Below are positions 22,960 through 35,770 of a DNA stretch of 37,560 nt, piece after piece; position 1 is the stretch's first letter, and the number at the start of each line of letters is the position of its first letter. The notes beneath the pieces are model-generated. The model was not told the DNA's origin, did no database searches, and worked only from the letters and a program-made list of their open reading frames with translations. The stretch comes from Candidatus Kapaibacterium sp. (GTDB taxonomy: Bacteria; Bacteroidota; Ignavibacteria; Kapaibacteriales; UBA4661), in the NCBI GenBank assembly GCA_025455065.1, contig JALONG010000058.1, positions 1 to 37,560 on the forward strand, written 5' to 3'. Position numbers and translations under genes: made by a program.

Positions 22960-23994
22960 TTATGCGGTCACGGTGTTCAGTTGCGATTCCCGAATGTGCC
23001 GATATGCAATCTGAATATGAGCAGGTTTCATTATCTCTCGCTTGCGCTCCGTCCAGTTTGCAATATGCTCTTGCACGTCGTTTAGGGAATAATCAGGCTG
23101 CTCAAGAAGCGCGAAATCTACCGTTGCCAGCAACTCCAAACCATAGGGAGATTCAAAGCCTTCAATAAAATCCAATACCTGCTGCATACGCTCTCGCTGC
23201 TCAGGCTGAAGATTATTGGCAACATATTCCTCGACAATGCTCAAGTTCGGCTCTATGATGGTTATTTCCGTATCAGGATTGTTGCGGGTTTCGTTATAAT
23301 GGAGAAATGAACCGTTCAAAAGCTGCAAAACCTTATTCAGATTGGCAGCAAACGGTCCGTACATTCCTTTCTCGAAGTTCAGTCGGAGATGTTCCCCAAA
23401 ACGCTGAAGGAAATACGCCGTTTTCTGTGCTACGAGAAGATTGATGTCATAGCCCAAAACACGATACCGATGCAGCACATACACCAGCATTGCCCGTGCA
23501 GGCGTGAGCGGAACCAGTTCTGCCACTTCTTCCCGAACTGCTTCAAATCCCGGCTCCAAGACCGTAATCGTACACTCGGCTGCTAAGGGCGACAGATATT
23601 GCTCAATAAGCGGATGAACATCGCTCCAGCGCAATTTTCCGTTGCCACAGCCCAAAGGTGGTACAACGATTGAACGAATGTTCTTTTCTCGGATGATGCG
23701 CACCAAATCTTGCAGACCTTCTTCGATGTACGACAATTTGGACGGATACCGCCAATGGTCTTTTGTGGGGAAATTGATGATGTAGTGCGGTGTCAGTTCG
23801 TCGGTCTCGGTAACGAACATTTTGCCCATAGCAAGCTCACCTGCTTCGGCGGCGGCTTTGTACAATTTGAAATTTTTGGGAAACTGCTTCTTAAACGCCA
23901 AAGCAATGCCCTTGCCCATCACCCCTTGAAGATTGACGGTATTCACCAACGCTTCTGCGTGGATTTCTAAGATATTTCCTTGCGTGAAGGTCAT
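22960..23994 (-). CDS. darG: DarG macrodomain antitoxin (DNA ADP-ribosylglycohydrolase)
   Basis: 344 aa. The N-terminal macrodomain (about 1-150) shows TQGNILEIHAEALVNTVN, GVMGKGIALAFKKQFP and VVPPLGCGNGKLRWSDV, the ADP-ribose-binding and catalytic loops of the DarG class. The C-terminal half (about 165-340; starting near MLVYVLHRYRVL) matches the part that binds and blocks DarT. It removes ADP-ribose from thymidine in DNA and so protects the cell from DarT. It begins 6 bases after the darT stop, so the two are translated from one mRNA, toxin first. Confidence 0.93.
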   Translation of the reverse strand: MTFTQGNILEIHAEALVNTVNLQGVMGKGIALAFKKQFPKNFKLYKAAAEAGELAMGKMFVTETDELTPHYIINFPTKDHWRYPSKLSYIEEGLQDLVRIIREKNIRSIVVPPLGCGNGKLRWSDVHPLIEQYLSPLAAECTITVLEPGFEAVREEVAELVPLTPARAMLVYVLHRYRVLGYDINLLVAQKTAYFLQRFGEHLRLNFEKGMYGPFAANLNKVLQLLNGSFLHYNETRNNPDTEITIIEPNLSIVEEYVANNLQPEQRERMQQVLDFIEGFESPYGLELLATVDFALLEQPDYSLNDVQEHIANWTERKREIMKPAHIQIAYRHIRESQLNTVTA

Positions 23995-24000
23995 CGTTGT

Positions 24001-24648
24001 TTAGTAGTACCAGTTGCGATAAACTTTGGCGGGCAGCCTGCTTCCGTACTTGGTTGCAAGTGAGTCGGCAAATATACGAGTTTCCTCGTCAAAAACGCCA
24101 ATGCCGAGAAGATATTCTACTCCCAATTCACTCTTTACCAGAAATTCAGCTTGTTTACGCCGTTTTCTGTCGGAATCGGTTACTGTATCAGACCAATGTT
24201 GCTCTTTAACCATTTCAAAATCCACTTCGGTCAAATTCTCAAGATTGTCATAGAATTTTGTCAGACGATGAATACCATGACCATCGCTAAAGACAAAGCC
24301 CTGACCGCTCTCACGCACTTTTTCGACACTACTCACCAAATAGACAATATCGCGCTGCGGTTGTGCGAGAACATTCTCTCCACCTCTCCAAATCTGGTAT
24401 AGCATCGGCGAACGTGTGCCGAAATAGAAGGATACATACTCTTGGAAACTGCCCGCAACACTGCCCGACGGCTCTACGACAATAGTGCGCTTGCCCCGTG
24501 TTGAAATAAGCGTCCCATCGCCAATGCCAATATATGATTGATTTGCTTTGGGGTGATTCGGTGCGGTTAGTTTCTCAATCTTGAAAATATGCTCAAGATT
24601 GTCGCGGTGTGTAATGCGGTATAGTCCTATTTTGGAAAGGTCAATCAT
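24001..24648 (-). CDS. darT: DarT DNA ADP-ribosyltransferase toxin
   Basis: 215 aa, DUF4433 family. It attaches ADP-ribose from NAD+ to thymidine in single-stranded DNA and blocks replication, and is reported to defend against phage. Visible are GLYRITHRDNLEHIFK (His14, NAD binding), YIGIGDGTLISTR, YVSFYFGTRSPMLYQIW (Arg79) and the likely catalytic Glu168 in KQAEFLV. The last residues VYRNWYY are also typical. No frame damage is visible, so the toxin should be active. There is no Shine-Dalgarno, but a well-formed Bacteroidota-type promoter lies at 24762-24794. Confidence 0.93.
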   Translation of the reverse strand: MIDLSKIGLYRITHRDNLEHIFKIEKLTAPNHPKANQSYIGIGDGTLISTRGKRTIVVEPSGSVAGSFQEYVSFYFGTRSPMLYQIWRGGENVLAQPQRDIVYLVSSVEKVRESGQGFVFSDGHGIHRLTKFYDNLENLTEVDFEMVKEQHWSDTVTDSDRKRRKQAEFLVKSELGVEYLLGIGVFDEETRIFADSLATKYGSRLPAKVYRNWYY

Positions 24649-25400: not shown

Positions 25401-28400
25401 TTACCATTGCAGCTTCGGTAAACCCCGCACGATTTCGACCGTCTGCACACTCACGTTTATCACCGACAACAGCACATCCAAGATATAGCGCGGGTTGTAG
25501 TGTTCTGCCGCCCAATCGTTCGGGTCGTTCCTGATGCCGCTTTCTTTGTGCGTTGTTACTGCATATCGCTCCATCACCCATTCTATCGCGCTTTTCCCGT
25601 TCACAATGTACTCGTACGCTTCGTCGGGGATATTGCTTATCGTGATGCGGCTGTTGAAGTGTATCGTATCTTTGCGGTCTTTCGCGGGAAAGCGCATTTT
25701 TTCGACCGTAAACATTTCGCTCTCCGCGCCTTCAACTTCAACGTCCGCAGCCGGAACCTTTTCGTAATTGCAATGCAAATCCCCCAGCTTTCGCCCCGCT
25801 CCGGCAAACTTCCAAAAATCTTCCAAACTCACCCACGGAAGGCGCGGCAACATTTTCTTCAAGTCTGCTCCAAAGGCGGCGCGATATTCGGGACTGTGCA
25901 ACAAACCATACACGTAGTAAAACACATCTTCTTTCGTGACAATCTTTCCATACCGCTTCCGCGCTTCTTCCAGTGCGTAGTCGCTCACGCCGTCCCGCCG
26001 CACCATTTCTCGCGTGGTCTCTGCCCCAAAGAGTGTTGCTGCCTTGCTTTCACGCTCTTCGTAGTAGTAGAGTGGGAAACATTGGGTATCGCCATTAAAG
26101 TGCAAATCAGGAATACAATCGCTCATAAGTGCCGTCATTTCTTTGTTTCCGCCTGGTGCTTGCACACAAATCACGCGATTTTCCTTGCCTGCGGGGAAGA
26201 GTTTGGGGATTTGATAGACCATTTCATTCACAGCACGGGAGAAATACAGCTTTTGCTTGAAGAATGGGCGATAAACACTATCGGTTATCCAGCCGGAATC
26301 GTAGTGATGCTCACGATTCCGCACAACATCGGCTTCCAGCGCACGTGTCCAACTAATTTGCGTCGTATCATAACTCAAAAACCGCTTCACATCAAGGTTT
26401 GGTGTACTTGCTTTGGCAGTTTGAAACTGTGTTCGCTGCTCGTTGTAAAAGCCCAGCAAACGGCGGATATTTGCCTCCAGTGCGGTTTGGGAAGAATTGT
26501 AGCACCACGCATCGCGCTGCGTTTTCAGCCCATTAGAATAAAACGGCACAAACACCGTTTTGCGGTTCGTCGTGTCATCTTTGTCGCCCAAAGGAATGAA
26601 GGTCGCAAACACATCCTTGCGTTGCGAAATCCAGTCGCCATGCTCGTTTGGAGTGAGTTCCTTCCAAGGGAAATCGGGGTTTCCTGCGGAGCGGAATTGC
26701 CGGAGCAGCTTTAGTTTTTCCTCCCGCGAGAGGTAATCGCCGATGTCGTGGTAGTAGATGGTTGCGAGCGGCTTGGGTGCTTGGTCATTGGGTGCTTGGT
26801 CATTAGTTGATTGGTCATTGGTTACTTGGTCATTAGTTGATTGGTCATTGGTCATTAGTCGTGTGCCTGCGTCGTCTGACAAATGACCAATGGCTAATGA
26901 CAAATGACTATCTTCCCGACCAATGGCTAATGACAAATGGCTATCCTGCGGCTTTTTCACCAAAATCGTTATCGCAATCGGAGTGCGGGAGCCGCTTCCG
27001 AAAATTTTTCCGCCTTCTTTGCGGCTCAATTCGCCGCTTGTACGCTGATTTCCTCGCAAATTGAACACGTAAACGGCGGAAAACTCTTCTTGAAGGCATT
27101 TGCGGAAGCCGTCTTGGGCATTGCCGTCCAACCATGCACCGTTGGAGACAAAGGCAACGATGCCGCCGTGTTCGGTATTCAGGCGGTCGCTGCTCCAGCG
27201 AAATGCTTTGAAATAGGAATCGTAGAGTGAGTTTTTGTTGGTCGCATTGGTGCGGGCTGCGTAGGTAGCGGCAATGCGGCTGTTCAGCTTGGGATAGTCC
27301 TGATTTTGGGCGTTGTCGTTGGCAGAAGTTTGCCCGACGGAATAGGGCGGATTGCCGATAATGACGCGGAGCGGCGCGTGTTTCTGGCGTTCGACGCGCT
27401 CGGAATTTTGGCGGAATACATCGGAGAACAGTTCGTCGGCAGCACCTGTTTCGGCGAGTTGGAAGGTGTCCGTAAGGCAGATTCCGCCGAAGGATTGGTA
27501 GGCTTGGGTGTTGGTTACTTGGTCATTGGTTACTTGGTCATTGGTTACTTGAGGTGCGGCTTGCAGCGCGTCGTGGAAGGCATTTTCAATGTTCACCGCC
27601 GCGATGTAATACGCCAAAAGCACGATTTCGTTGGCGTGAAGTTCCGACGAATACTTGCGTTCAAGGTCTTCGGGACGAATGCGTCCGCTTTGCAAAAGGC
27701 GCACAAGGAACGTCCCCGTTCCCGTGAACGGGTCGAGGATGTGGATATTTTCGTCGGAGAGCGAGCGTCCGAACTCCTTTTGCAGAACATCATCAACGGA
27801 CTGCACGATAAAATCCACGACTTCGACGGGCGTATAGACAATGCCCAATTTTTCGACCATTTTGGGAAACGCGGTTTTGAAAAATTTGTCGTACAATTCA
27901 ATAATGATGCGCTGTTTGCCCTCGGCGTTGTCAATGCCGGAGGCACGCATTTTCACGGATTCGTAGAATTTGTTCAGCGTTTCGGTATCTTTTTCGAGAG
28001 CCTGCGCTTCCAGAAGCTCCATCATCTGCTGCATGGAAACGGAAACGGGATTGTTTTGCACAAAGGAATATCCCTCAAAGAGCGCGTCGAAAACGGGTTT
28101 GGTGATGATGTGCTGTGCAAGCATTTCGACGGCTTCGGTTTCGGAAACGGCGGGATTGATGTTTTGGCGCAAGCCTTCCACAAAGCGCATGAAAACTTGC
28201 TTGTGCGCCCCGTCGTCATTGACGAGCCGCGTGATGCGCTCGGTTTGGCGTTCGGCAATTTCGGCGATATTTTTTGCCCACTGCTCCCAGTATTGGCGGT
28301 TGCCGACTTTCAGCACCATGCGGGCAAAAATGGCGTTTTGGAGTTCGTCGAAGCGCATGAGTATTTGGTCTGCAAGGCGGTCTCCCGCGCTCTTTCCCGT

Positions 28401-30596
28401 ACTTGCATCTGCCTTTGCACCGGTAGCATCTCCACGAGGAGGCGCACCGCTTGCGCTATCGTCGTCGCCCAAAGCAGCGCCGGGCGCACCAACGACGATA
28501 TTTGCGGGGCGTTGCTGGTTGAGTTCAATTTTGTTCACGGTCGCATTAAAGCGGTCATCGTGGGATTTAAGCGCGTTTAAGACCGACCACACAACGGCGT
28601 AACGCTCGTTATCGTCGAGTGCTTTTTCCGCTTCCACATTCGCAGGAATAACAATGGGAATGATGATGTAGCCAAATTTTTTGCCTGGAGAGCGTCGCAT
28701 CACGCGCCCAACGGACTGCACCACGTCTATTTGCGAGTTGCGCGGCGAAAGGAACAGCACGGCATCCAACGACGGCACATCTACGCCCTCGCTGAGGCAT
28801 CGGACATTCGTGAGCATACGGCACGTACCGTCGTCGGTTTCGGCTTTGAGCCACGAGAGTTTTTCATCGCGCAGGGGAGCAGCCATAGAGCCGTCTATGT
28901 GGTCGGACTGCACCGAAACCATTTGCTGACGTTGTTCGCTTGGCAGGTCGTCGAGATAGGATTGTGCGAAGGTGTTGTAAATATCGGTAATTGCTTTTGA
29001 GGTTTTGATATTTTGGCAAAATGCCACCGCACGGCGCATTGGTGCTGGGTCGTGGGCTTTGGTTGCCCCGTTGTCGCCAATGATAAGTTTGGACAGCGCG
29101 TTTACGCAACCGATGAGTTTTGCGGCATCGTCGGTCTTAATTTCGGTGTTGCTATCGGCAATGCTTTTTTGCAAGGCGGGAGAAATATCACTTTCACTGA
29201 CGGTCAAAATCAATACTTTGTAATCGGTCAGAAGCCCCTTCTCTACTGCCTCACCAAAACCAATGCGGTAAATTTCTTGTCCGTACAATTTTTCGTCGTC
29301 CATCGAACACAGGACGGCACTTGATTGCGCGGCTTTGCTTTTGCTGTCGTCGCTGTACAGGCGCGGCGTGGCGGTCATGTAGAGCCGTTTTTTTGCGCGA
29401 ATGAACTCGTTGTCGTGAATGCGCACAAAGGCTGATTCTGCTTCGTCTGCAAGCGTTACGCCCGTTGTGCGATGTGCTTCGTCGCAGATAACGAGGTCGA
29501 ACTCACCAAGGGGCGAACCCGCTTCCATCAAGGCTTGCTGCGCCTTGTGGACAACTTCCAACGATTGATACGTGGAAAAAACAACCGTCATGCCGGAAGA
29601 AGTCATTGGTGCGTTAGTTGCTTGGTCATTGGTTTTTTGGTGCTTGCGAATATGCTCAAACTGCCGCAAAATGTTCTTCACGTCGGTCGAAGCAGGAAGA
29701 GCCAAATCCACAGTGCTGAAAGAATCAGGGTCAGTGTCGGAATTGGAAGCGGAGTTTCTTCGCCGTGTGCTTGAACTTGTCTGCGAAATAGCGGGGTCGG
29801 AGCAGATGCAGACTGCGTTCAAGGGCTGTTCTGCTTCCTGCGCCCATTCGCGGAGGGTTTGCCCCAGAAGCGCAATCGACGGCACGAGAAACAGCACAAA
29901 ACCTTGTTTTCCCGAAGATACGCTTGTTTCTTTTTCAGAGGTTTCTTTTTCGGCAATTTTGAGCGCGGTAAAGGTTTTGCCTGTGCCACACGCCATGATG
30001 AGCTTGCCTCTGTCTGCGGTTTTGAAGTGTTCGTGTGTGCGCTCAAGGGCGTGGATTTGATGCTCACGCAATTCTTTTTTTGCCGTGCGAGCCGCATTCC
30101 CGCTCAATCCGTCGTGAAGTTTTGCCCAATCAACGCCGGAGGCTTCCAAATCCGTCAAATGAATACGCGACACAGGCGGATGCTGGTTTTGAATGGCTTC
30201 GGTAGCGTTGGAAGTCCATTTGTTGGTCGTGGAAATCCAAAGCCTGTGTACGAAACCTGTTTTTTTGCCGTCGGGCAAGGTAAACTCTCGGCTTGAAGTG
30301 GAAAGGAAGGAATCAACGGAGGCTTTGTCAATGGTTGCAGACTCTTGGTAGCATTTGCACTGCACCGCCCAATACTCACCGTCGTGCGTCATGGCAACGA
30401 GGTCAATTCCCGTATCAACGCCGCCAAGTTCGTCTTTGGCAAAAAATTCGCTCCATAGCCAAACATGGCGGAATTGCACGGCATAGAGCGGGTCGGTTTG
30501 CAAATACAGGCACATAAGGCGTTCAAAGCGGTCGCCTTTGTCGCGCTCGGAAAAGGCTTCGGTGCGGTAGATTTCAAGAATGCTGTTGAAGGTCAT
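25401..30596 (-). CDS. Single-chain restriction-modification enzyme, Type ISP architecture
   Basis: 1731 aa from the ATG at 30596; the frame runs four codons further to a TTG. Domains in order: Mrr-like PD-(D/E)xK nuclease (about 15-110; GVDTGIDLV, then WAVQCKCY); superfamily 2 helicase/translocase with Walker A MACGTGKT (near 200), DEAH (near 372), MTATPRLY, and motif VI SVGRVMRRSPG; a coupler region; N6-adenine methyltransferase with motif I DPFTGTGTF (near 957) and motif IV NPPY (near 1082); then a C-terminal target-recognition region ending VEIVRGLPKLQW. One polypeptide therefore cuts, translocates and methylates, as in LlaGI/LlaBIII. Three low-complexity inserts (near 320, 1015-1030 and 1217-1279) come from TTGGTCATT-type DNA repeats. 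Catalytic motifs look intact. Confidence 0.9.
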   Translation of the reverse strand: MTFNSILEIYRTEAFSERDKGDRFERLMCLYLQTDPLYAVQFRHVWLWSEFFAKDELGGVDTGIDLVAMTHDGEYWAVQCKCYQESATIDKASVDSFLSTSSREFTLPDGKKTGFVHRLWISTTNKWTSNATEAIQNQHPPVSRIHLTDLEASGVDWAKLHDGLSGNAARTAKKELREHQIHALERTHEHFKTADRGKLIMACGTGKTFTALKIAEKETSEKETSVSSGKQGFVLFLVPSIALLGQTLREWAQEAEQPLNAVCICSDPAISQTSSSTRRRNSASNSDTDPDSFSTVDLALPASTDVKNILRQFEHIRKHQKTNDQATNAPMTSSGMTVVFSTYQSLEVVHKAQQALMEAGSPLGEFDLVICDEAHRTTGVTLADEAESAFVRIHDNEFIRAKKRLYMTATPRLYSDDSKSKAAQSSAVLCSMDDEKLYGQEIYRIGFGEAVEKGLLTDYKVLILTVSESDISPALQKSIADSNTEIKTDDAAKLIGCVNALSKLIIGDNGATKAHDPAPMRRAVAFCQNIKTSKAITDIYNTFAQSYLDDLPSEQRQQMVSVQSDHIDGSMAAPLRDEKLSWLKAETDDGTCRMLTNVRCLSEGVDVPSLDAVLFLSPRNSQIDVVQSVGRVMRRSPGKKFGYIIIPIVIPANVEAEKALDDNERYAVVWSVLNALKSHDDRFNATVNKIELNQQRPANIVVGAPGAALGDDDSASGAPPRGDATGAKADASTGKSAGDRLADQILMRFDELQNAIFARMVLKVGNRQYWEQWAKNIAEIAERQTERITRLVNDDGAHKQVFMRFVEGLRQNINPAVSETEAVEMLAQHIITKPVFDALFEGYSFVQNNPVSVSMQQMMELLEAQALEKDTETLNKFYESVKMRASGIDNAEGKQRIIIELYDKFFKTAFPKMVEKLGIVYTPVEVVDFIVQSVDDVLQKEFGRSLSDENIHILDPFTGTGTFLVRLLQSGRIRPEDLERKYSSELHANEIVLLAYYIAAVNIENAFHDALQAAPQVTNDQVTNDQVTNTQAYQSFGGICLTDTFQLAETGAADELFSDVFRQNSERVERQKHAPLRVIIGNPPYSVGQTSANDNAQNQDYPKLNSRIAATYAARTNATNKNSLYDSYFKAFRWSSDRLNTEHGGIVAFVSNGAWLDGNAQDGFRKCLQEEFSAVYVFNLRGNQRTSGELSRKEGGKIFGSGSRTPIAITILVKKPQDSHLSLAIGREDSHLSLAIGHLSDDAGTRLMTNDQSTNDQVTNDQSTNDQAPNDQAPKPLATIYYHDIGDYLSREEKLKLLRQFRSAGNPDFPWKELTPNEHGDWISQRKDVFATFIPLGDKDDTTNRKTVFVPFYSNGLKTQRDAWCYNSSQTALEANIRRLLGFYNEQRTQFQTAKASTPNLDVKRFLSYDTTQISWTRALEADVVRNREHHYDSGWITDSVYRPFFKQKLYFSRAVNEMVYQIPKLFPAGKENRVICVQAPGGNKEMTALMSDCIPDLHFNGDTQCFPLYYYEERESKAATLFGAETTREMVRRDGVSDYALEEARKRYGKIVTKEDVFYYVYGLLHSPEYRAAFGADLKKMLPRLPWVSLEDFWKFAGAGRKLGDLHCNYEKVPAADVEVEGAESEMFTVEKMRFPAKDRKDTIHFNSRITISNIPDEAYEYIVNGKSAIEWVMERYAVTTHKESGIRNDPNDWAAEHYNPRYILDVLLSVINVSVQTVEIVRGLPKLQW
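26771..26944. repeat. In-frame repeat insert 1 of the restriction gene
   Basis: A tract built of TTGGTCATTAGTTGA/TTGGTCATTGGTTAC 15-bp units, followed by ACCAATGGCTAATGACAAATG units in the opposite sense. It codes low-complexity peptide (TNDQS and DSHLSLAIG repeats) between the methyltransferase and target-recognition regions. The 15-bp period keeps the frame open. Confidence 0.85.
27503..27551. repeat. In-frame repeat insert 2 of the restriction gene
   Basis: About three 15-bp TTGGTCATTGGTTAC units, coding TNDQV repeats (QVTNDQVTNDQVTNTQ) between methyltransferase motifs I and IV. The frame is kept. Confidence 0.85.
29601..29640. repeat. In-frame repeat insert 3 of the restriction gene
   Basis: A short degenerate stretch (AGTCATTGGTGCGTTAGTTG, then CTTGGTCATTGG) coding KTNDQATNAPMTSSG inside the helicase domain, between motif I and the DEAH box. 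It is weaker than the other two, but of the same word family. Confidence 0.55.
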
Positions 30597-30658
30597 TGTA
30601 ATAAACAAATAAAAGTTGAATATGCACTTAGAAGAACGGCTTTTTGCTTTTTTGCCTC

Positions 30659-31176: not shown

Positions 31177-31454
31177 TTACATTGCCACAGAATAGCGCAA
31201 TTCCCGCATTGTTTTCGCACCAAACACCCGCAAACTCACGAGATAGTCAGGGCGGCGGCGCTTGTATTTCACAGCGAGGCGGTTAAGGAAGTGCAACCAT
31301 GTATCAGGTGTGGCTGTATCGGCTTCACGAGGTTTTTTGCTTGTGCTGTGTTTGTGGAGCAAAAACGCAGAACAATTATGATGTCGTATTTGTGGCAAGC
31401 ACGAAAAAGTTCGTATTTTGCTGAATGTTTTCTTCACCCACTTCCCGCGCAATA

Positions 31455-32258
31455 ATGAGCATACTCAGCATCAACGATACCATGTACTTTCCGTCCTACC
31501 AAAAACAATGCTCACCTTCTCCCTCAGCAGTCTGGAAAAGGTTTGCATCGTTGGAGGAATACCCGACTATTGCCTTTGCGCGGCAGTCCTCCGCCGTCTT
31601 TTCCTCACGCATTGAAGGTGTCGAAATTGACCTGAATTTCTACCTTAATTCTCGTTTAACGAATGCCAAAGGAATCAAAGCGGAAACACGAACAACGCTT
31701 GATTGGGTGCGGGCATTGGAGGATGGTTATGCGTTTGCGGAGAAGCACGTTTTGAACGAGAAAAATTTTCTCAAAGTGCATTTTATGATTTCCAAGTTCA
31801 TGGACAATCATCGTGAACGCGGCGCATACAGGCGTGTTCCGGTGGTCATTGGCAGTCGCTCGAAGATTGTGTATCGCGCCTTAGCGCCGGAAAAGGTTGA
31901 GGAAGCAACGCAGGAATTTTGGCATGATATGAAAGTTCTCATAAAAACACCGCTATCTCCGGCAATGGCTTTGTATCACGCTTCGCTTGTGCATCTCGTT
32001 TTTGAGAAAATTCATCCTTTTGCCGACGGGAACGGAAGAATGGGGCGTTTGCTGGAAAAATGGTTTTTAGCGCAGCATTGCGGGAAATTAGCATGGAAAG
32101 TAACCGGTGAAGCCTATTACGAGCAGATGCGTCCCATGTATTATGCGAATCTCGCCGCTTTAGGCTCAAGCCCTGAAACACTTGATTTTAGCAAGTGCAT
32201 CCCGTTTTTACTGATGTTACCAACGGCGATTGTCGCTGCAATGGATGATTTGCAATGA
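31455..32258 (+). CDS. Fic-domain protein with N-terminal inhibitory helix
   Basis: 267 aa from the ATG at 31455 (MSILSIND); another ATG at 31425 adds ten residues. The Fic core is HPFADGNGRMGR (187-198), matching HPFx(D/E)GNGRxxR with every catalytic residue, so it should transfer AMP (or another nucleotide part) to a protein hydroxyl. The N-terminal part carries SSRIEG (50-55), which fits the inhibitory (S/T)xxxE(G/N) motif: a class II Fic that blocks its own ATP site through Glu54. It is on the opposite strand to the neighbouring toxin-antitoxin genes. The target protein is unknown. The stop codon lies in a 14-bp triple repeat. Confidence 0.9.
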   Translation: MSILSINDTMYFPSYQKQCSPSPSAVWKRFASLEEYPTIAFARQSSAVFSSRIEGVEIDLNFYLNSRLTNAKGIKAETRTTLDWVRALEDGYAFAEKHVLNEKNFLKVHFMISKFMDNHRERGAYRRVPVVIGSRSKIVYRALAPEKVEEATQEFWHDMKVLIKTPLSPAMALYHASLVHLVFEKIHPFADGNGRMGRLLEKWFLAQHCGKLAWKVTGEAYYEQMRPMYYANLAALGSSPETLDFSKCIPFLLMLPTAIVAAMDDLQ

Positions 32259-32974: not shown

Positions 32975-34354
32975 TTAGCTCATCGGAGCGAGGTTTTCCG
33001 CCACATCCGTGCGGTATGCCGTCAGCGCCGGAAGCAAGGAAACAAGCCCCGTCAGCACAACAACGCCGCCCAGCAACAGTGCATCATAATTATACCACCA
33101 ACCGAAGGTCAGCGTTGTACCTATTTGCGCTTGCACCGTCGGCTCCGCCAAGCGCAACGCCAAACGCGCCGTACCAAGCCCTACAACACTCCCAACAAAG
33201 CCGATAAGCGAGGCTTCGGCAAGAATAAGCCCGACTACTGAGCGTTTATGCGCACCCAGAGAACGCAAAATTGCTATCTCCCGCCGACGTTCATTCAGCG
33301 AGGTATAAAGCGCCACGATAATCGAAATCGCACCCAGCACAATGACCATGTACGAAATTCCCAACAGCACACCGCTTACATTACCGACAATCTGAAACAA
33401 TCCCGCAATCTCTCGAATCGGCACAGCTGCTTGTGCCGACGTGCCGTCATTCACATTGCGCATAAAACTGTCGTAAAATACCGGACTTTTGAGTTTAACG
33501 GCAAGTGCTGTAACGCTCGTAAATTCCGGCGGAATAGGATGTTCCTCGTGCTTATGCTCCGCGTCGTGGTCGTGCTTATGCTCTGCATCATGGTCATGAT
33601 GATGTTCCCCGTCGTGGTCGTGATGATGCTCCCCGTCGTGGTCTGCTTCACCCTTCTTGTGGTCCGGTTCAGCCGTCCCAAGCGCTTTTTCGGCTGCTTC
33701 CCGTGCTTCCTCGTATTCGTGGTAATGCGTGTCCCAGACGGTGCGCATGGTCATATACACGCCTCTGTCAATCGCTGTTCCCGTCGGGGCAAGAATACCA
33801 ACCACAGGCATTTTTCCATGGTCGTGAGCGCCTTGCTCGTTTGTTTCCAAGCCGTGCCGGACGGTGAGGGAATCGTTCAGTTTCAAACCTAATTGTTGAG
33901 CAACTTCTGCACCCAGCACCGCTTCAAAGTTTTCGTCAAATGGTTTTCCTTGTGCAATACCAATGCGAAGACCTTTGCGATATTCAAATTTCGTAAAAAA
34001 ATCTGTCGTTGTGCCGACAACCTTGTACCCGCCGACATTATCACCAAAGACCATCGGAAGGCTTGATTTAATGCGCTTGTCGGCTTGAATACGCTCACAA
34101 TCGGCAAGCGGAAAATTGCCTACCGGAGCGCCTAGGTGATACATCGTGTTCAACACAAGTTGTAACGGGCTTCCCTTCGCACCGACAATAATCTCAAACC
34201 CCGTATCTTTCTGCGAAAACGAGCGCTCTGTTTCCGTGCGAAGCGTCAAAATTGATGCCGTAAGAGCCACACCCACAGCCACAGCCAGCACGGTCAAGGC
34301 GTTTGGTACTGTGCGTTGTTGGAAAAAGCGAAGGAGCAGTTTGAAAATGTTCAT
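32975..34354 (-). CDS. FtsX/MacB-type ABC permease with His-rich loop
   Basis: 459 aa from the ATG at 34354 (MNIFKLLLRFF). It has an N-terminal transmembrane helix (about 18-38), a large periplasmic MacB-type domain (about 40-325) and three C-terminal FtsX helices (starting near GVLLGISYMVIVLGAISII, with the conserved ERRREIAILRSLGA loop). Within the periplasmic part, about residues 238-272 hold a His/Asp-rich stretch (GEHHHDHD and AEHKHDHD units), which could bind zinc, copper or nickel. This class exports lipoproteins, peptides or drugs and needs a separate ATPase; none is adjacent here. The stop lies 99 bases from the tRNA-Leu gene. Confidence 0.87.
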   Translation of the reverse strand: MNIFKLLLRFFQQRTVPNALTVLAVAVGVALTASILTLRTETERSFSQKDTGFEIIVGAKGSPLQLVLNTMYHLGAPVGNFPLADCERIQADKRIKSSLPMVFGDNVGGYKVVGTTTDFFTKFEYRKGLRIGIAQGKPFDENFEAVLGAEVAQQLGLKLNDSLTVRHGLETNEQGAHDHGKMPVVGILAPTGTAIDRGVYMTMRTVWDTHYHEYEEAREAAEKALGTAEPDHKKGEADHDGEHHHDHDGEHHHDHDAEHKHDHDAEHKHEEHPIPPEFTSVTALAVKLKSPVFYDSFMRNVNDGTSAQAAVPIREIAGLFQIVGNVSGVLLGISYMVIVLGAISIIVALYTSLNERRREIAILRSLGAHKRSVVGLILAEASLIGFVGSVVGLGTARLALRLAEPTVQAQIGTTLTFGWWYNYDALLLGGVVVLTGLVSLLPALTAYRTDVAENLAPMS

Positions 34355-35596: not shown

Positions 35597-35638
35597 GGTG
35601 GTTGGTTTTTAGTTTTTAGTTGGTAGTTTTTGGTTTTT

Positions 35639-35762
35639 GGGTCATTATTCATTGGTCATTAGCCATTTGTTATTGGTCATTCGTTGAGGATAGTTCGTAT
35701 GGAAAACAAGTGCAGAAGCGGTTCGTAAGCCCAATGACCAATGACTAACCACCAATGACCAA
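35639..35762. repeat. ATTGGTCATT repeat cluster, inverted
   Basis: GGTCATTATTCATTGGTCATT-like words (35639-35681) face CCAATGACCAATGACTAACC-like words (35731-35762) and can fold together. The same words form the in-frame inserts in the restriction gene. The cluster fills most of the spacer between the DUF5683 gene and purK. Confidence 0.8.
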
Positions 35763-35770
35763 GCACCTCA

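Follow-up and report, generated by a model that had tools for sequence, protein, structure and literature searches.

How does a restriction gene come to carry, within one open frame, three pieces of a repeat that also lies between genes? The question is raised by a stretch of 37,560 nucleotides from Candidatus Kapaibacterium sp. (assembly GCA_025455065.1, contig JALONG010000058.1), hereafter the window, by which this whole stretch is meant. An initial annotation, made from the letters alone, saw there a restriction gene invaded at three sites by dispersed 15-bp repeats, and proposed that these could serve a slippage-driven phase or length variation of a defence enzyme. Here we describe the element from which the inserts derive, its hosts and the corresponding sites in relatives. 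Pattern, profile and covariance searches of draft assemblies were used, and all copy numbers are lower bounds.

Three Inserts in a Type ISP Restriction Gene

The host gene (table 1) encodes the Type ISP domain set in one chain: Mrr nuclease, SF2 helicase, coupler, N6 methyltransferase, and ISP specificity domain. Its reading frame is uninterrupted across all three inserts, and where 0.48 copies of the word TTGGTCATT would be expected in the window, 14 are counted, a number that 0 of 100 shuffles reached; the proposed in-frame invasion at three sites is thus upheld. Ten of these copies lie in the restriction gene (seven in 26781-26890, two in 27519-27542, and one at 29622), and the remaining four, in 35652-35762, confirm that the same words occur between genes. 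The description as 15-bp units holds in part: TRF reports period-15 arrays at 26773-26852 and 27511-27551, but insert 1 also holds an inverted repeat with a partly conserved loop, in which the words of one arm are spaced at 7 bp and those of the other mostly at 15 bp. Likewise, the third site is a true in-frame insert, yet amounts to about one unit. As had been noticed, one insert, the second, separates DPFTGTGTF from NPPY, which we take to be methyltransferase motifs I and IV.

Table 1. Positions of the restriction gene, its inserts, and the repeat copies in the window
Feature	Position	Strand	Description
Type ISP restriction-modification gene	25401..30608	-	1735 aa; TTG start, first ATG 30596; carries three inserts
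Insert 1	26772..26945	-	residues about 1222-1279; contains full hairpin element; bounds from homologue alignment
R1 element-model match within insert 1	26830..26909	-	84.7 bits; peptide SHLSLAIGHLSDDAGTRLMTNDQSTNDQVT
Insert 2	27504..27554	-	residues about 1019-1035; tandem TNDQV units alone; separates methyltransferase motifs I and IV
Insert 3	29598..29633	-	residues about 326-337; about one unit; helicase part
Intergenic element copy	35638..35765	+	R1 match 35654-35758, 77.6 bits

Alignment of related Type ISP proteins, the check that the initial annotation had called for, gives the bounds of all three inserts in table 1 and shows the inserts to be missing, reduced, or different in homologues. 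Four of these (L032, L033, L034, and L037) are without all three segments, except for a short NEEENTE in L033 at the insert 2 site. In L031 (66% identity) insert 3 is absent, the insert 1 site has a single unit (QATNDQAT), and the place of insert 2 is taken by a duplicated hairpin repeat of another kind, with CCCCCTTTGTCAAGGGGG; L036, which aligns to residues 5-914 only, shows a short KQADADA at insert 3. The closest known host systems are the Type ISP enzymes LlaBIII (4xqk) and LlaGI (5ffj). LlaBIII matches the host enzyme over nearly its full length, yet is without inserts 1 and 3: the alignment breaks at 1220|1283 versus 1149|1156, leaving six residues of its own in place of insert 1, and a gap falls at the insert 3 site.

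A fourth variable site, at 29901-29954 (residues 219-236), reads EKETSEKETSVSSGKQ here, holds another insert in L036, and is short in the other aligned homologues. The restriction gene is flanked (22963-24648 and 31425-32255) by a DarT-type ADP-ribosyltransferase adjoining a Macro-domain gene, a DarTG-like pair, on one side, and by a Fic-family gene on the other; together they form a small defence or toxin-antitoxin neighbourhood. Farther along, a 24-bp unit is repeated 4.3 times (33546-33648) within an ORF (33248-33892) without a Pfam match at E 1e-5.

A Dispersed Palindromic Element

A genome search for word clusters had been suggested in the initial annotation. With at most one mismatch, the 15-bp double word has 57 matches in the whole genome against 0 for the reversed control, and the 7-bp double word 158 against 1. 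The words are arranged as a dispersed element, in which TTGGTCA words are followed by a loop and then by TGACCAA words. Among the 61 word clusters counted in the examined neighbourhoods of this genome, 21 have two arms and 40 a single one; the polarity, TTGGTCA words before TGACCAA words, is the same in all 21 two-arm clusters and in 5 of 5 from 12 stretches of other genomes. The loops are related across unrelated genes: a TAYTRAAG-type core is found in 6 of 21 (0.13 expected), and the LeuRS and MutS loops are identical at 25 of 30 bases, where the best of 50 shuffles gave 19. All four genic hairpins tried fold as RNA with z-scores of -3.3 to -3.9, including 26835-26910 in insert 1 (-3.69); the one intergenic copy tried (35638-35765) gave -2.13, and no stable RNA fold was obtained for insert 2.

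A covariance model, R1, was built from 18 copies. Its search of this genome gave at least 86 rows over both strands among the best 150 of 1640 candidates scored; taking the better strand per place, and examining 42 of 49 places (the seven omitted score <25 bits), at least 32 places reach 40 bits. The match length in strong copies is 79-118 bases. With Rfam 15, the window gave a match to a tRNA only, and four loci that carry copies gave none up to E 0.5. The exact repeat words were not found in the literature searched, nor, judging by title and the start of the abstract, was any paper recognised as describing a TTGGTCA/TGACCAA element.

Genic Copies and Their Host Proteins

The share of the element inside genes was a point on which the initial annotation had asked for figures. 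Of the 32 strong places found in this lower-bound census, 16 lie in ORFs whose codon score, from training on long ORFs at these same loci, is positive to either side of the copy, 15 fall outside any ORF of at least 150 aa, and one (L065) is upstream of a likely start. This last, an acetyl-CoA hydrolase ORF, was rejected as a genic host, its upstream coding score being negative. All 16 genic copies are in sense and in one peptide frame, SHSSLAIGH..DN..MTNDQ, although, as genic copies were oriented by gene sense in the R1 model, their orientation is not independent evidence. Over the matched stretch, one of the six frames is open in 11 genic copies, two in 4, and three in 1; at the 16 other strong places, L065 included, none is open in 8 and one in 8.

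By Pfam, the hosts are LeuRS, a P-type ATPase (presumably KdpB, from its sequence), TrmO, MutS, a nucleotide cyclase, and eight histidine kinases (4 + 2 + 2); a ninth kinase (L168) was assigned by its flanking motif, and an unclassified ORF of 788 aa (L169) and the restriction enzyme complete the set. Seven unrelated host families are thereby represented in this genome: restriction enzyme, LeuRS, pump, MutS, TrmO, cyclase, and kinases. In the kinases the insert lies in HATPase_c, between the N box and the next strand, and these copies may be paralogues descending from one insertion event.

In the family, a peptide profile matched 8 of 10 genomes (for G000 among the best 150 of 299 candidates, for G009 among the best 150 of 314). 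Of 18 host loci processed, 17 yielded an ORF and eight were scanned with Pfam, two of them kinases of this genome and six hosts from relatives: a GGDEF protein, MutS2/Smr, the cyclase, a TonB receptor, a TamB-like protein, and DNA polymerase III alpha (DnaE), the latter belonging to G009, another genus. Type IX secretion-tail proteins were considered as a source of the element and rejected, only a short word being held in common and antisense to the model. The PF18962 type IX secretion tail itself has at least 150 matches in G000 among the best 150 of 184 candidates.

Insertion Sites in Relatives

Nine of the 10 genomes allow the LeuRS site to be read (the locus from G009 does not include it): six show a short turn, one (G000) the TTGGTCA/TGACCAA element, and two other inserts. 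In G005 the insert is another palindromic repeat, CCCTC...GAGGG, with the peptide PTLLPEGEGQ...SPSGRGQGEG, and in G002 a third kind, with no recognised repeat. The two halves of the LeuRS alignment are adjacent across residues 303|334 in G001, G004, G006, and G007, and the flanks stand five residues apart in Thermus LeuRS (1h3n) versus 35 here. Because unlike inserts occupy one position beside species without any, an insertion hotspot is favoured over a single diverged insertion. Against the reading preferred below, the short turn of G008 (locus L119) is itself written GTCATTGGTCAT, two repeat words, so native seeds exist. The KdpB-like pump lacks the insert in all five other genomes with an orthologue (four read directly, G008 from alignment coordinates), and the MutS linker, read in 9 of 10 genomes (not G003), holds the element in four (G000, G001, G002, and G005) and other sequence in five. 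Both in LeuRS and in the pump the insert takes the place of about seven native codons, with no clean split, so that no target-site duplication, as sought for a MITE, is readable at either. As to solvent exposure, a feature expected of RPE-type inserts, the alignment gaps against 4xqk and 1h3n fall at short connections; the AlphaFold models (mean pLDDT 51 for residues 899-1735 of the restriction enzyme, 38 for LeuRS) are too poor for placing the inserts.

The CCCTC...GAGGG repeat of G005 has matches in 67 plasmid records, the best of them in an annotated DNA methyltransferase gene adjoining drmD in Pseudanabaena, where it is open in frame as PSPKGRGGTRDLSGSPRPLGEGLGVRE; this second palindromic repeat, too, occurs in frame inside genes. 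On that plasmid stretch (L253:722-5095; Pseudanabaena galeata plasmid NZ_CP112875.1), the repeat stands soon after the methyltransferase DPTMGSGAF motif.

Arm Spacing and Array Length

Read in the TGACCAA direction, a pure 7-bp array runs into a TGA after no more than 21 bases, but one with 15-bp spacing remains open as TNDQV. In 18 genic stretches, 15-type spacing accounts for 13 of 29 spacings on the 3' arm but 1 of 25 on the 5' arm (4 other spacings aside; p 0.0006). Genic 3' arms and intergenic arms (30 of 94, 4 others aside, in a set that excludes nine loci of unclear coding status) show no significant difference in this respect (p 0.27). The cyclase array has six complete units and a partial one up to the contig end here, versus one to two units in two relatives; length change is therefore plausible. 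Contigs C58, C72, and C123 end within repeat arrays (at the end of L085 and the starts of L091 and L105), one of them in the cyclase gene, and the arrays thus break the assembly.

Distribution across Genomes and Plasmids

The 7-bp double word occurs unevenly in the phylum, in 30 of 296 genomes and 25 of 140 genera; the reversed control also forms arrays in some, reaching 24 matches on a single strand, which shows heptamer arrays to be a common feature in general. Seven plasmid records match the repeat, four from Nostoc and one each from Halotia, Rhizobium, and Serratia; with five of the seven from Nostoc or Halotia, the earlier guess of a wide family that includes cyanobacteria is corroborated. 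A Kapabacteriales assembly of genus PH2015 was obtained from a Dolichospermum culture (PMC7714850), and contact of Kapabacteriales with cyanobacteria is thus possible.

Origin of the Inserts

Taken together, we consider it probable that the inserts are small palindromic elements resembling the Rickettsia palindromic elements (RPE), dispersed in the genome and persisting in genes at tolerant turns. Some mobilising enzyme would have copied the palindrome into spacers and genes alike; genic copies would then persist, presumably with near-neutral effect, in turns and linkers that tolerate extra residues and in a stop-free orientation and frame, and would be translated as a hydrophilic SHSSLAIGH..DN..MTNDQxTNDQ peptide. 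After insertion, the word arrays may lengthen or shorten in steps of 7 or 15 bp. The restriction enzyme would have received three such pieces, and need not depend on them. No mobilising gene was found; two Y1_Tnp (PF01797) genes, tried as a REP/RAYT-type mobiliser, have no repeat words within about 4 kb around each and were rejected.

The original proposal, by which the arrays would be contingency loci whose slippage tunes the restriction enzyme, draws on a 15-bp unit that preserves the frame, on pure tandem units in two of the three inserts, on arrays that end several contigs and so are long or variable, and on the differing number of cyclase units; yet a 15-bp step is unable to switch the gene off, and insert 1 is a hairpin rather than a plain array. 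Moreover, LeuRS, MutS, the KdpB-like pump, TrmO, the cyclase, and the histidine kinases all carry this element in the identical frame, so that a role specific to defence is unsupported. Phase variation of this sort is neither needed nor supported, and we regard it as highly improbable; many genes besides that of the restriction enzyme serve as hosts. Growth of each array by slippage from a native seed resembling the repeat by chance, with no transposition at all, would fit the two repeat words of the G008 turn, the single unit of L031 at insert 1, and the similar short word LDIRHWSL of secretion-tail proteins. Slippage alone cannot explain the related loops of unrelated genes, however, neither the LeuRS and MutS likeness nor the recurrent core, although it may still act once a copy has inserted, and as a full account it seems quite improbable. 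The least credible reading is that of a functional module, kept in its hosts for binding or regulation: a single reading frame, similar peptides, and nine kinases in which it recurs at one turn of HATPase_c speak for it, but nearly half of the strong copies (15 of 32) lie in no ORF of at least 150 aa, another lies upstream of a start, and at the LeuRS site other species either lack an insert or have a different repeat or an unrelated sequence inserted, so that no particular peptide is kept. For annotation, the RPE-like reading carries a warning: such peptides in LeuRS, MutS, or kinases represent repeat DNA, not domains.

Comparison with Known Repeats

Cyanobacterial STRR are tandem 7-bp words, and the present repeat likewise has tandem 7-bp words with a patchy occurrence across phyla. 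TAACTGA-type heptamers are described, in passages of PMC4679880, as patchy across Cyanobacteria and Bacteroidetes and mostly intergenic, upstream of starts, some of them reversed inside ORFs, with 11 such ORFs in BOGUAY; the element shares the tandem 7-bp words, but differs from that description in its word and in its hairpin with a loop. PARCEL, as portrayed in parts of PMC2996958, are palindromic DNA coding a repeated peptide and spread by transfer and shuffling; these are tandem domains of 25 residues, found in ORFs to which no function is assigned, whereas here single insertions into housekeeping enzymes are seen.

The likeness to RPE, and to the WPE of Wolbachia, is closer, as far as the descriptions in sections of the published accounts go. 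RPE are portrayed there as small palindromes that occur both within and between genes and, in unrelated genes, are translated in frame; DNA polymerase III alpha and aminoacyl-tRNA synthetases are among the hosts (PMC3767692; PMC10969869). As would be expected of many-copy palindromes of some 100-150 bp that enter unrelated genes in frame, we find hairpin matches of the length given above at no fewer than the 32 strong places, and 16 genic copies in the seven families; the element would thus appear to work like RPE, and the picture matches these reports, so far as their descriptions extend. Since the relatives are Candidatus Kapaibacterium records and not Rickettsiales, it is RPE-like, not an RPE. 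It differs in its phylum and in arms made of tandem 7- and 15-bp words, and some sister species are without the insert, whereas the inserts stand at the same sites in all Rickettsia orthologues aligned in the relevant section of PMC3767692. Protein-invading palindromes being known from Rickettsia, what is new here is a variant in a Kapabacteria lineage, backed by clear comparative evidence. A bolder view would see a second protein-invading system outside Rickettsiales, recently active in the genus, with fixed turn positions of essential proteins as exchange sites for unrelated dispersed repeats and with GTCAT...ATGAC ends common with RPE-4/6/7, which are noted as rich in ATGAC in part of PMC3767692, pointing to one mobilising mechanism in both groups; this we think rather unlikely. 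PMC3767692, in its discussion of sites, leaves open whether insertions of unlike origin can enter one RPE site, and the LeuRS turn, with sister species that have no insert, the TTGGTCA/TGACCAA element, another palindrome, or an unrelated insert, makes that question directly testable.
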